Part shown: positions 22,138 through 35,031 of the stretch, piece after piece
Layout of the letters: each line of letters begins with the position of its first letter
Position numbering within the stretch: position 1 is the first letter of the stretch
Assembly: GCA_025360005.1 (NCBI GenBank)
Contig: JANYDA010000034.1
Span: 1 to 64,000 of the forward strand
From: Fibrobacteria bacterium
Lineage (GTDB): Bacteria; Fibrobacterota; Fibrobacteria; UBA11236
Length of the DNA: 64,000 nt
Reading direction: 5' to 3'
The notes under the pieces: generated by a model
Databases searched by the model: none
The model's input: the letters and a program-made list of their open reading frames with translations, nothing else
What the model was told of the DNA's origin: nothing
Made by a program: the position numbers and the translations under genes

Positions 22138-23235
22138 GTGACGGACCTGCACGTTTACATCGGCAGCTACACCTCGAATGGGGGCGAAGGCATTTACCTG
22201 TTCGGTCTCGATGGGGAAACCGGGGCCTTGAAACCCATCCGCACCACGGTCGGCGTGGTGAACCCTTCCTTCCTCACGGTCCATCCGGACGGCCTGCACC
22301 TGTATACCGTCAACGAGGTGGACGCCTACTACGGAAAACCGGAGGGCGCCCTCAGCGCCTTCGCCATCGAGCCCGGCAGCGGCGAATTGCGCTTCCTCAA
22401 CCAGCAACCTTCCCGCGGCGCGGCGCCTTGCCATCTTTCCCTGGATCAAACCGGCCGCCTGTTGTTCGTGGCCAATTGCGGCGGCGGCAGCGTGGCCGCC
22501 TTTCCCCTGCAACCGGACGGAAGCCTGGCGGCTTGTTCGGGGCAGGCGCGGCACCAGGGTTCCGGCCCCAATCCTTTCCGGCAAGAAGCGCCCCATGCGC
22601 ATTGCGTGGCCCCGGATCCCTTCAACCGCTACCTACTGGCCGTGGATTTGGGGATCGATCGGATCCTCGCTTATCCCTTCGATGCGGAAACCGGGATCCT
22701 GCGCGCCTCTCTGCCCGGTTCCACGCCGACGGAAAGCGGATCCGGTCCCCGGCACCTGGCCTTCCATCCCAACGGGAAATGGGTTTACGTGGTGCATGAA
22801 TTGGAATCCCGCGTATCCCGTTACGCGTACAACGGCATGATCGGCGCCTTGTCGGAACCGGAATCCGTTTCCTCCTTGCCTCCGGGATATGACGGTGAGA
22901 ATTCCGGATCCGGGATCCAGGTCGATCCGTTGGGGAAGTTCCTGTACGTTTCCAATCGCGGCCAGGACGGAGTATCCCATTTCCGCATCGATCCCGGGGA
23001 CGGATCGTTGGCTTATGCGGGGTGCGAATCCACGCGCGGAAAATTCCCGCGCCATTTCGCCATCGCTCCGGGCGGGCGCTTTCTGATCGCGGCGAACCAG
23101 CGATCGGATTCATTGTCGGTTTTCCGCATCCATGCGGCGACGGGGATTTTGGAATTCACCGGGTACGGCGCTGCCGTTCCCTCGCCCGCATGCGTAAGCA
23201 TCCATGTCCCGCTTCCCGGGCCGGCGTGCCTTTAG
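22138..23235 (+). CDS. Lactonase-family beta-propeller (6-phosphogluconolactonase-like)
   Basis: A 365-residue protein. GTG 22138 has GGAGAG seven bases upstream. It matches the YbhE/Lactonase family: 'VYIGSYTSNGGEGIYLFGLD', 'NPSFLTVHPDGLHLYTVNE', 'GAAPCHLSLDQTGRLLFVAN', 'EAPHAHCVAPDPFNRYLLAV', 'GSGPRHLAFHPNGKWVYVVH' and 'GKFPRHFAIAPGGRFLIAAN'. E. coli Pgl of this fold hydrolyses 6-phosphogluconolactone in the pentose phosphate pathway; many relatives act on other lactones, so the substrate is open. No signal peptide. Confidence 0.88.
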   Translation: MTDLHVYIGSYTSNGGEGIYLFGLDGETGALKPIRTTVGVVNPSFLTVHPDGLHLYTVNEVDAYYGKPEGALSAFAIEPGSGELRFLNQQPSRGAAPCHLSLDQTGRLLFVANCGGGSVAAFPLQPDGSLAACSGQARHQGSGPNPFRQEAPHAHCVAPDPFNRYLLAVDLGIDRILAYPFDAETGILRASLPGSTPTESGSGPRHLAFHPNGKWVYVVHELESRVSRYAYNGMIGALSEPESVSSLPPGYDGENSGSGIQVDPLGKFLYVSNRGQDGVSHFRIDPGDGSLAYAGCESTRGKFPRHFAIAPGGRFLIAANQRSDSLSVFRIHAATGILEFTGYGAAVPSPACVSIHVPLPGPACL

Positions 23236-32035: not shown

Positions 32036-33736
32036 ATGGAACGGCTTCCGGCCGCGCTCCTGACCGCGGCGGGATTGGCCTGGGTGGTGGCCTGCCTGTG
32101 GTTTCCCCTCACCGATACGGACATCTGGTGGCACCTGGCTTCGGCCAAGCTGATGTGGGCGCGCAAAGCATTCCTGCGCGCGGATCCTTTTTCCGCGGTT
32201 TCCTTGGGCGCGCCTTGGACCGATCTCCATTGGGGCTTCCAATGCCTGGCGTATGCGGCCTGGAAGCTGGGAGGCCCGGCCGCATTGGTGGCGGGCAAAT
32301 GCCTGGCCGTGGCCGGGGCGTTGGGTTTGGCGCTCAGACCGCATCTGGACCGGCGCACGGCTGCCTGGTTGGTTCCCTTGGCCGCTTTCGGCATTTACCA
32401 AGTGCGCTTCTTCATCGACGTTCGCCCCTTGGCGCTCACCCTGTTGGGGCTGGGCATCCAATACGCGACGGTCATCCGGCATTTGCGCGGAGGCCTGCGG
32501 CGCCCCTGGTGGATCCTCATCCCGGTGCAAATCGCCTTGGTGAACATCCAGGGCCTGTATCCCTTGGGTGACGTGCTGGTTACCTGCCTGATCGCGGGGG
32601 AATGGATCGATCGCAAACGCGGGATAGGGATGGAATTCCGGCCCGCCACGTCTTTTGCGACCGGCATTGCCGCGCCGGTCATGCCGCTGCGCGGATTGGT
32701 CCTTACCTGCGCGGCCATGTGGGCGGCCGGTTTGGCCAGCCCCTTCGGGTGGTCGGGAGTGCGGTTGCCTTTGGCCTTGTTGGAGCGGATAACGCCGGTT
32801 GCGGAGAACATCTTCTCCACGGAAATAGCGGAAAACCTTCCGCTAACGGATTTGCTGCGCCGGCATCCGGGGCAAGCCCTGCCGTTCCTGTTGCTGGGCT
32901 TGGCGGTGGCGTATACCTTCGATAAGGCGCGCGCCCGCTTCGGCACCGGCCACGCCCTCCTATTCCTCGCCTTCGCCGGCCTGGGCTGCATGGCGCAACG
33001 CAACCTTCCCCTGGCCTTTTTGGCGGGATTGATGGCGGCCGGACGTAACTTGCAGGTTTACCTGGGAGGAAATGCCCCATCCTCCGGATCCGAGGGAGGC
33101 GGAACCGGTCCCCTGCGGAGGCTGCGGCCCTTTGCGGGGTGGGGCGCTTTGGCTGCCGTTATCCTTCTTTACGGCCCCAAGTTGCGCGCGGCCTGGGAGT
33201 ACGAGTTGCCCGGAAGCATGGAGACGCCTTTCCGGTTCCCTGCGCCCGCCGCGGACTACCTGGAGCGGCATCCCCTGCCCGGGAACATCTTCAACGAGCT
33301 TCGTTACGGGGGATACCTGGAGTTCCGCCTCTACCCGGGGAAGATCGTCTTCGTGGACGGACGCATGATCCTGCGCTCCCCGGAATTCTACCGGGATTTC
33401 CTCGCCGCCGTGGACCGGCCTGAAGGCTTCCCCCAGTATCGCGCCCGTTACGGTATCACGCATGCGCTGCTCCCCATTTCCGAGGATCTGCGCTACCTGC
33501 CGCTGGCGGCCCATTTGCTGGGAAGGGAAGGATGGACTTTGCTCTATTGCGACGGGGCCTCGGCCTTGCTCGCAGACTCAGCCGCCACCGTGGGCGTTCC
33601 CATCGTCCCGGTGCCGGGGGCCATCCGGGCCCGCTTCGGCGCCAATCCCCGCCTGCAAGCCGTCGCCGCCGCCAATGCGGATCGGTTCCTGCGCGCGGCA
33701 AGCGCGGATAGGGAAAATTCCGCCAACCTCCCTTGA
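32036..33736 (+). CDS. GT-C-like polytopic membrane protein
   Basis: A 566-residue protein from ATG 32036; GTG 31985 is also possible. About ten membrane segments, with 'FPLTDTDIWWHLASAKLMWA' near the N-terminus. The 'DTDIWWHLA' loop is the acidic signature seen in uncharacterised GT-C/PMT-like proteins. The soluble C-terminal domain begins near residue 400 (GNIFNELRYGGYLEFRLYPG, KIVFVDGRMILRSPEFYRDF). It probably transfers a sugar from a lipid carrier. It is divergent from the epimerase gene, and its stop codon overlaps the -35 box of the next promoter. Confidence 0.65.
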   Translation: MERLPAALLTAAGLAWVVACLWFPLTDTDIWWHLASAKLMWARKAFLRADPFSAVSLGAPWTDLHWGFQCLAYAAWKLGGPAALVAGKCLAVAGALGLALRPHLDRRTAAWLVPLAAFGIYQVRFFIDVRPLALTLLGLGIQYATVIRHLRGGLRRPWWILIPVQIALVNIQGLYPLGDVLVTCLIAGEWIDRKRGIGMEFRPATSFATGIAAPVMPLRGLVLTCAAMWAAGLASPFGWSGVRLPLALLERITPVAENIFSTEIAENLPLTDLLRRHPGQALPFLLLGLAVAYTFDKARARFGTGHALLFLAFAGLGCMAQRNLPLAFLAGLMAAGRNLQVYLGGNAPSSGSEGGGTGPLRRLRPFAGWGALAAVILLYGPKLRAAWEYELPGSMETPFRFPAPAADYLERHPLPGNIFNELRYGGYLEFRLYPGKIVFVDGRMILRSPEFYRDFLAAVDRPEGFPQYRARYGITHALLPISEDLRYLPLAAHLLGREGWTLLYCDGASALLADSAATVGVPIVPVPGAIRARFGANPRLQAVAAANADRFLRAASADRENSANLP

Positions 33737-33760
33737 CAATCGTTTGCGAATGCATATAAT
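33733..33760 (+). promoter_or_regulatory. Consensus sigma-70 promoter
   Basis: TTGACA at 33733-33738 and TATAAT at 33755-33760, 16 bases apart, both perfect consensus. The predicted transcription start (about 33767) coincides with an ATG. The -35 box overlaps the stop codon of the preceding gene. No promoter of this quality was seen elsewhere in the window. Confidence 0.85.
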
Positions 33761-33766
33761 TGGAAC

Positions 33767-33862
33767 ATGTCGCGCCCGGTTTCCCGCTCCCTCCGCTTTG
33801 ATCTGCCGCAAGTGAAAGCTTGGCATGTCAAACACATTATGGTAGCGGGCGGGCGAGACTGA
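33767..33862 (+). CDS. Possible leaderless 31-residue leader peptide or part of a small RNA
   Basis: An ATG at 33767, exactly at the predicted transcription start, opens a 31-codon frame to TGA at 33860-33862. The peptide is basic (MSRPVSRSLRFDLPQVKAWH then VKHIMVAGGRD) with no run of a regulatory amino acid. Either it is a leaderless leader peptide or the frame is incidental within a regulatory RNA. The sequence is followed at once by a candidate attenuator. Confidence 0.35.
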   Translation: MSRPVSRSLRFDLPQVKAWHVKHIMVAGGRD

Positions 33863-33920
33863 TTCGAATCTAAACAATCCGGATCCAAGCAAAGCCCGCT
33901 CCCCAAGAGCGGGCTTTTTT
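33818..33920 (+). ncRNA. Candidate transcription attenuator / structured leader RNA
   Basis: GCTTGG (33818-33823) can pair with CCAAGC (33885-33890), closing a 73-base domain placed four bases before a terminator. AGCGGGC occurs twice: at 33844-33850 inside the domain and at 33908-33914 as the 3' arm of the terminator. The 5' arm GCCCGCT (33894-33900) can pair with either copy, which is the geometry of a terminator/antiterminator switch. I do not recognise a known riboswitch class here. Confidence 0.55.
33894..33920 (+). terminator. Rho-independent terminator upstream of the EamA gene
   Basis: GCCCGCT, loop CCCCAAG, AGCGGGC, then TTTTTT. A perfect seven-base GC-rich stem with a T run, 28 bases before the EamA start codon. 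Confidence 0.85.
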
Positions 33921-33948
33921 CGTTTGGTCCGGGCAAAGGAGCCCATCC

Positions 33949-35031
33949 ATGGCGTCGGAAGCCGATAGTCGCAAGGTCAGATTGGGGTTGGCGGCGGTGG
34001 TCACCGCATCCATCCTGTTCTCGGCCAAGTCCGTATTCTACAAGATCTGTTTCCGCTACGGTACAACGCCCGTAGCCCTACAGACCCTGCGCGGACTGTT
34101 TTCCCTGCCGTTCTACCTGTGGCCTTTCTTGGCGCTGCGTTTCCGCGCGCCCGACAAACGGCCCGCTCCCATGCGCGGCAAGGACATGCTCATCATCGCC
34201 TGGTTGGGGTTTTCCGGCTACTACCTGGCCAGCATCTTCGATATGGTGGGCTTGCAGTACGTCTCGGCCGGCATGGAACGGCTCATCCTCTATGTCTATC
34301 CCACCTTGGTGGTGCTGTTTTCCGCTTGGATTTTCCGGAAGAAGATCCCGCGCGCGCTGCTTGCGCCGCTGTTGTTGACTTATGCCGGCATCGCCCTTTC
34401 CTTCGGGGGTGAAACGGGCGGCGTAGCGGCCGGAAGCCGGCCCTATTATGGCGGAGGCCTGGTATTCCTGAGCGCGTTGTTCTACGCGTTGTTCCTGGTA
34501 TGGCAGGGGCGGATGGTCCATCGTTACGGGCCGCAGCGCCTGGCGGCCGGTTGCATGATGGTTTCCTCGGCCTGCGTATTCGCGCAGTTCCTGGCGTGTT
34601 ACCCCCTGCATGCCTTGCTCCAGCCGAAGCCCGTGATGTGGATGGCTTTCCTCACCTCCGTGTTCTGCAACGTGGTGCCCGTCTACCTCTATGGCTACGG
34701 CGTGCAATGGGTGGGGGCGGGCAGGGCCGCCGTGGTGAGCGGGGTGGGACCGGTCTCGACCATGGTGCTGGCCGGTTTACTGCTGGGCGAACGTCCCGGC
34801 ATCCCGCAATTGGCCGGATTGGCCCTGGTGGTGTTCGGGACGTTGCGGCTGGGAATGGTGAAGGGCGTCGCGAAGGAAACCGCGAAGGAAAAAGCGAAGC
34901 CCGATGCGGATCAGGGCGCGGGCGCCGGTTCCCCGTCTCCGGATGCCTCCGGTTCCCGCATTCCCGACCCAGTACCTTCCATGTTACCTGTCCCCGCCGC
35001 GGCAGATCGGGAAGGGCGCGGTTTCACGTAG
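33949..35031 (+). CDS. EamA/DMT-superfamily transporter
   Basis: A 360-residue protein from ATG 33949 (AAAGGAG upstream). Ten membrane segments in two EamA halves: 'FSAKSVFYKICFRYGTTPVA', 'YLASIFDMVGLQYVSAGMER', 'ALFYALFLVWQGRMVHRYGP', 'GAGRAAVVSGVGPVSTMVLA'. Members export amino acids, nucleosides or other small molecules, and the substrate cannot be told from sequence. A Lys/Ala/Pro-rich tail of about 55 residues overlaps the convergent gene at 34911. Expression is probably controlled by the attenuator immediately upstream. Confidence 0.85.
   Translation: MASEADSRKVRLGLAAVVTASILFSAKSVFYKICFRYGTTPVALQTLRGLFSLPFYLWPFLALRFRAPDKRPAPMRGKDMLIIAWLGFSGYYLASIFDMVGLQYVSAGMERLILYVYPTLVVLFSAWIFRKKIPRALLAPLLLTYAGIALSFGGETGGVAAGSRPYYGGGLVFLSALFYALFLVWQGRMVHRYGPQRLAAGCMMVSSACVFAQFLACYPLHALLQPKPVMWMAFLTSVFCNVVPVYLYGYGVQWVGAGRAAVVSGVGPVSTMVLAGLLLGERPGIPQLAGLALVVFGTLRLGMVKGVAKETAKEKAKPDADQGAGAGSPSPDASGSRIPDPVPSMLPVPAAADREGRGFT

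Follow-up and report, generated by a model that had tools for sequence, protein, structure and literature searches.

The segment at positions 33733-33920 of the window (the whole stretch of 64,000 nucleotides of Fibrobacteria bacterium DNA that was analysed), situated upstream of a gene for an EamA transporter, is probably (at an estimated probability of about 0.7) a ribosome-mediated transcription attenuator whose leader peptide is leaderless and whose controlling amino acid is tryptophan. This reading draws on sequence comparison and modeled folding, from which we infer the start of transcription, the translation of the leader, the stalling of the ribosome and the direction of regulation. 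The general layout had been correctly recognized by the first-pass annotation of this DNA, but the control codon, the relatedness to leaders of amino acid biosynthesis genes and the masking of an RNA element by a ribosome at the stop codon had escaped it.

All features of the leader are located on the forward (+) strand. The promoter scan revealed a -35 hexamer TTGACA (33733-33738) and a -10 hexamer TATAAT (33755-33760) separated by a spacer of 16 bases; the perfect promoter noted in the first-pass annotation was confirmed (12/12 matching positions), is the sole promoter-like site between 32500 and 35500 and is kept together with the EamA gene in the relatives. The ATG at 33767, the seventh base past the -10 box, opens a frame of 31 codons that is predicted to be leaderless (MSRPVSRSLRFDLPQVKAWHVKHIMVAGGRD, 33767-33862, stop codon TGA at 33860-33862), and the earlier placement of this frame at the predicted start of transcription holds. 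It comprises element 1 (CCCGCT, 33783-33788), which in the computed folds is the partner of element 2 when no ribosome is present and whose exact sequence is not kept among relatives (a second upstream stem is made by 33773-33778), the Trp codon 19 (TGG, 33821-33823) as the proposed control codon, and element 2 (AGCGGGC, 33844-33850), the 5' arm of the antiterminator as recognized by comparison across leaders. Element 2 would pair equally well in a shifted register (GGGCGGGC, 33847-33854), i.e. two registers are possible in the window. A small spacer hairpin (GATTCG/CGGATC, 33861-33885), also seen in same-genus leaders, lies between elements 2 and 3 and perhaps draws the two together. The stem of the intrinsic terminator spans 33891-33917 and is formed by element 3 as its 5' arm (33891-33901, core CCGCTC) and element 4 as its 3' arm (33907-33917), with a U-tract of six T at 33915-33920. 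The sequence GCCCGCT in element 3 (33894-33900) can indeed pair with either AGCGGGC copy, i.e. element 2 or 33908-33914 within element 4, as had been proposed, and both pairings covary. The EamA start codon (ATG, 33949) is preceded by its own ribosome-binding site (AAAGGAG, 33935-33941), in agreement with the earlier annotation. The calculated folding energy of the leader RNA (33767-33925) was -64.9 kcal/mol versus a mean of -46.8 kcal/mol for shuffled sequences (z -4.8).

Close relatives of the EamA protein (kept above a threshold of E 1e-35) were present in 13 of the 168 Fibrobacterota genomes searched: the window's genus accounts for six of them, a sister genus within that family for four and other families for three. 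In each of the 13, the complete leader layout, consisting of promoter, ORF, element 2 and terminator, was found upstream of the gene. The distance between -10 box and ATG is 6-9 bases in these leaders; based on this spacing, transcription is predicted to start at or near the ATG with a 5' untranslated region of 0-2 bases. The leader ORFs usually comprise 30-36 codons (60 in one case), the terminator follows soon after the ORF in 13/13, and element 2, usually GAGCGG, can pair with the terminator 5' arm (CCGCTC). With the exception of G014, the distance from the start of element 2 to the stop codon is 10-19 bases (12/13), which places the element where a ribosome that has reached the stop would mask it. 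Primary sequence conservation is low except at the end of the ORF, around Trp and in the terminator. The helix GCTTGG/CCAAGC (33818-33823 and 33885-33890), which had been proposed to close a domain of 73 bases, is present in the window but is not kept at this place in the relatives; the comparison of related leaders, which the first-pass annotation had put forward as a check, accordingly bears out both alternative pairings but not the closing helix. When 80 loci with EamA relatives (one of which proved to belong to the same-genus genome G001) were scanned for a leader shared beyond the phylum, no comparable combination of ORF and terminator turned up in the other bacteria. A common all-purpose terminator was considered and rejected: the close matches in the window's genome are the EamA leader and a leader of the same layout on contig C14 (see below). 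No tRNA or tmRNA was found in the search for known structured RNA.

The assignment of tryptophan as control amino acid is based on the position of its codon. Each of the 13 EamA leader peptides contains at least one Trp, located 14-35 bases upstream of the element 2 core, and Trp is the only residue that occurs in the window of 12-37 bases before this core in all of them. The observed 13/13, compared with 1.29 expected after shuffling of the ORF bases, is the strongest amino acid signal; the corresponding z-score of 10.9 is not to be taken at face value, since the 12-37 base window was defined with the Trp positions already in view and the shuffling takes no account of the kinship of the genomes (about five lineages). 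The same window is further enriched in Val (12/13), Ala (12/13) and Lys (9/13). In 10/13 leaders the end of the nearest Trp codon is 22-28 bases distant from the element 2 core, a distance that overlaps with those of the Ile and Leu codons in the sister leaders described below. Classical Trp attenuators possess two or three Trp codons; a single one is present in 10/13 EamA leaders. Among five same-genus leaders, pN/pS was 0.21 at the six codons from W-2 to W+3 (Trp included) and 1.0 on either side, which indicates that the reading frame around Trp is under selection. Within the genus, the surrounding K-x-W-x-V-K is conserved beyond what codon control requires, so that the nascent chain might play a part as well; between lineages the flanking motif varies (KAWHVK, QWVIV, TTWLKSV, SWRVF), as do the C-termini and the distance from Trp to the stop codon (11-16 residues).

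The element triple is present in 35 leaders. Variation in element 2 and in the arms of the terminator is slight, yet some of the changes are informative: in 24 distinct triples, standard pairs made up 91.7% of cells in the 2:3 pairing, compared to 40-53% when the elements were slid against each other, with changes on both sides at 3/7 pairs, and 89.3% of cells in the 3:4 pairing, with both-side changes at two pairs. In six leuA leaders (element GAGTG, 5' arm CACTC, 3' arm GAGTG) a C-G pair is replaced by U-A in both pairings; in the citramalate synthase leader of G006, a G-C pair is replaced by C-G in the 2:3 pairing only. As judged from the sequences, these compensatory changes support both pairings, and antiterminator and terminator are mutually exclusive. 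The folding models of the 13 EamA leaders gave corresponding results: with no ribosome, element 2 pairs upstream and the terminator forms; with a ribosome placed at the Trp codon, the 2:3 antiterminator forms in the nascent RNA; and with a ribosome at the stop codon, the terminator is obtained. When the stalled ribosome was combined with the full-length RNA, the terminator remained the stabler fold in 13/13 leaders; given that the terminator prevails in stability as soon as element 4 exists, the decision has to be a kinetic one.

According to the proposed mechanism, RNA polymerase would begin at the A of the ATG and the ribosome would load on the 5' end of the transcript with no need of a Shine-Dalgarno site. 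A shortage of charged tRNA-Trp would stall the ribosome when codon 19 (TGG) occupies the A site, with the front edge of the ribosome approximately 10 bases short of element 2; the latter, being left free, could pair with element 3 ahead of the synthesis of element 4, whereby the terminator would be blocked and EamA transcribed. If tRNA-Trp is charged, the ribosome would reach the stop codon and mask element 2, and the 3:4 stem would then end the transcript at about 33920. In the absence of translation, element 2 would pair upstream and the terminator would be expected to form as well.

A leaderless ORF, a GAGCGG element and a AAGCCCGCTC terminator also occur together upstream of other genes in genomes of the phylum. 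A loose element-triple pattern was swamped by chance matches; a stricter pattern gave 10 matches in 21 genomes and none in the reversed control. Most matches to the RNA model below approximately 40 bits represented terminators read in either orientation; such low-scoring matches were disregarded unless a leaderless ORF was located at leuA or a citramalate synthase gene. The leader peptides of citramalate synthase (cimA; TIGR00977, 447 bits on a piece of 300 residues, slightly below the full-length cutoff) contain runs of Ile (MSQRLIAIIRIIIDSGRSGL, MKSTLAIRIIITPPGSGL and others) and were found in G001-G009 (L005, L007, L010, L013, L196, L197, L201, L207, L260); in the same residue test, Ile ranked top with 8/8 compared to 2.98 expected. 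An I-R-I motif is conserved in these leaders, the Arg of which is unneeded for Ile sensing, so that here, as around the Trp of the EamA leaders, a residue is kept beyond the needs of codon control. The leuA leader peptides contain runs of Leu (MTSANAKNTISLLLLGLIG, MSNGIVRNSVNLLLLGLTD) and are present in the window's own genome (MSIGSVQNAIHSNVLLLGLSG*, G000:C48 at about 22890-23000, L251) as well as in G001, G002 (two copies), G003, G006, G007 and G013. In Fibrobacteraceae, trpE is preceded by leaderless Trp leader peptides ending in WWWQVP or RWWRGL (G016, L144; G017, L145; G011, L147); no attenuator was seen in the upstream region of trpE in the window's genus. The cimA and leuA leaders with their cognate codon runs serve as built-in controls for the EamA leader: they make the code of the module readable, according to which the EamA leader would read Trp.

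The same leaderless layout was also located before a gene family for which neither Pfam nor NCBIfam gave a match (G000:C14 at about 90590-90800, L002 and L248), with corresponding leaders at G001:C79, G002:C58, G003:C22, G004:C56 and G005:C192. Met is located at the control position in 5/5 of those tested compared to 0.42 expected, and an early W-R is conserved; judged by its sequence, this leader is possibly a Met attenuator.

The downstream gene (33949-35031, + strand) codes for an EamA transporter of the DMT superfamily with 360 amino acids (Pfam PF00892, E 2.8e-28). The NCBIfam equivalogs all scored far below their cutoffs (YddG: 24.1 bits versus a cutoff of 300), and a sequence search of the PDB yielded no match. 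The predicted structure (mean pLDDT 80) exhibits the DMT fold with 5i20 (YddG) as best PDB match, closely trailed by nucleotide-sugar transporters and a choline importer; as these match nearly equally well, no substrate was assigned based on the fold. Since expression is predicted under Trp shortage, an importer or salvage function would be easier to fit than an exporter, the simplest guess being that Trp or a related compound is taken up or salvaged. The ligand-controlled export envisaged in the first-pass annotation is therefore disfavored.

The single Trp and the within-genus conservation of its neighboring residues, which tolerate free synonymous change (pN/pS 0.21), would also be in accordance with an arrest peptide, in which the nascent chain (K-x-W-x-V-K) instead of the charging of tRNA-Trp stalls the ribosome upon binding of a small molecule in the exit tunnel; this molecule might be free Trp or another substrate of the pump, and the stall upstream of element 2 would give the antiterminator and switch an exporter on. 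EamA families do include exporters such as YddG, to which the protein shows a weak, sub-threshold similarity along with the best fold match (5i20). Nevertheless, we regard this explanation as unlikely: the flanking motif differs between lineages, the distance from Trp to the stop codon varies by several residues, and the Ile and Leu runs of the cimA and leuA leaders suit a control by codons. Neither a fixed distance from Trp to the stall site nor conserved C-terminal residues, as in TnaC-type arrest peptides, were found. The more specific proposal of a leaderless, Trp-containing arrest peptide that turns on the exporter of the molecule it senses, by way of a terminator module shared with amino acid attenuators, likewise appears rather improbable.

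The frequent occurrence of Val and Lys in the same window of the leaders raises the question whether Trp is incidental and another amino acid (Val, Ile or Lys) or a general slowing of translation, e.g. by ribosome-targeting antibiotics, is sensed, the more so as any stall upstream of element 2 would result in read-through; however, the departure of Trp from expectation (13/13 versus 1.29) is by far the strongest, and this explanation is considered quite improbable. The least credible alternative is a protein-free riboswitch or another RNA sensor of a ligand, which the first-pass annotation had named beside a peptide attenuator. Two alternative pairings with a terminator and a very stable fold would be expected of such an RNA as well. 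The Rfam search that had been advised to identify it, however, returned no family at threshold anywhere in the window, and a permissive search gave only weak matches to amino acid leader families and other terminator-bearing models that rest on the terminator; furthermore, the closing helix is lost in relatives and little of the primary sequence is conserved outside the three regions named above (end of the ORF, surroundings of Trp, terminator). It is the attenuator half of the earlier suggestion that is supported by the 13 EamA leaders, the sister leaders and the covariation.

The Trp attenuator reading predicts a tryptophan-responsive transporter in Fibrobacterota, and the leader provides a clue as to what an orphan EamA family may transport. 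The sister leaders for Ile, Leu, Trp and possibly Met suggest that leaderless attenuation is common among the amino acid genes of the phylum. In the open-access literature, no earlier leader-peptide attenuator was found described for Fibrobacterota or for this EamA gene. The leader may furthermore serve as a test case for whether one codon is enough for attenuation if ribosomes load at the 5' end.

With the E. coli trp leader (Trp_leader, RF00513) the EamA leader shares the order of the 1:2, 2:3 and 3:4 pairings and the proposed masking of element 2 by a ribosome at the stop codon. The E. coli trpL possesses a Shine-Dalgarno site and two adjacent Trp codons, whereas the EamA leader is predicted to be leaderless and contains mostly one Trp; the Rfam model RF00513 gave 20.4 bits for the window leader, below its gathering score of 41. 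The transporter gene ycbK of Bacillus subtilis is a member of the EamA family. Its control by tryptophan sets a precedent for a transporter gene, but operates through TRAP, an RNA-binding protein that acts where translation is initiated, and not through a leader peptide of this kind (PMC11255114). Another comparable system is the leaderless attenuator trpL-trpE(G) of Sinorhizobium meliloti, in which the leader ORF begins with the first base of the transcript, as is predicted for the EamA leader, and Trp control codons decide between antiterminator and terminator; it differs in its biosynthetic target and in its 14-residue peptide with several Trp codons, the sequence of which is unrelated to the EamA leader (PMC7298713). 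In Actinobacteria, attenuators of trp and leuS and leader peptides at ilv and cys were also predicted by genome comparison, with a complementary triple kept over long distances, though in another phylum, at other genes and with double or triple Trp codons (PMC1262725). Leaderless control peptides are further represented by the polycysteine leader ORFs of mycobacteria (early report PMC4633059; Canestrari et al. 2020, cited in PMC13236596), which concern cysteine and are described in PMC13236596 as translational attenuation. In view of these leaderless Trp and Cys leaders and actinobacterial triples, the EamA leader belongs to a known kind: the principle of attenuation is old, and what is unusual is the mostly single control codon, the transporter as target and the near-identical terminator module used for several amino acids.
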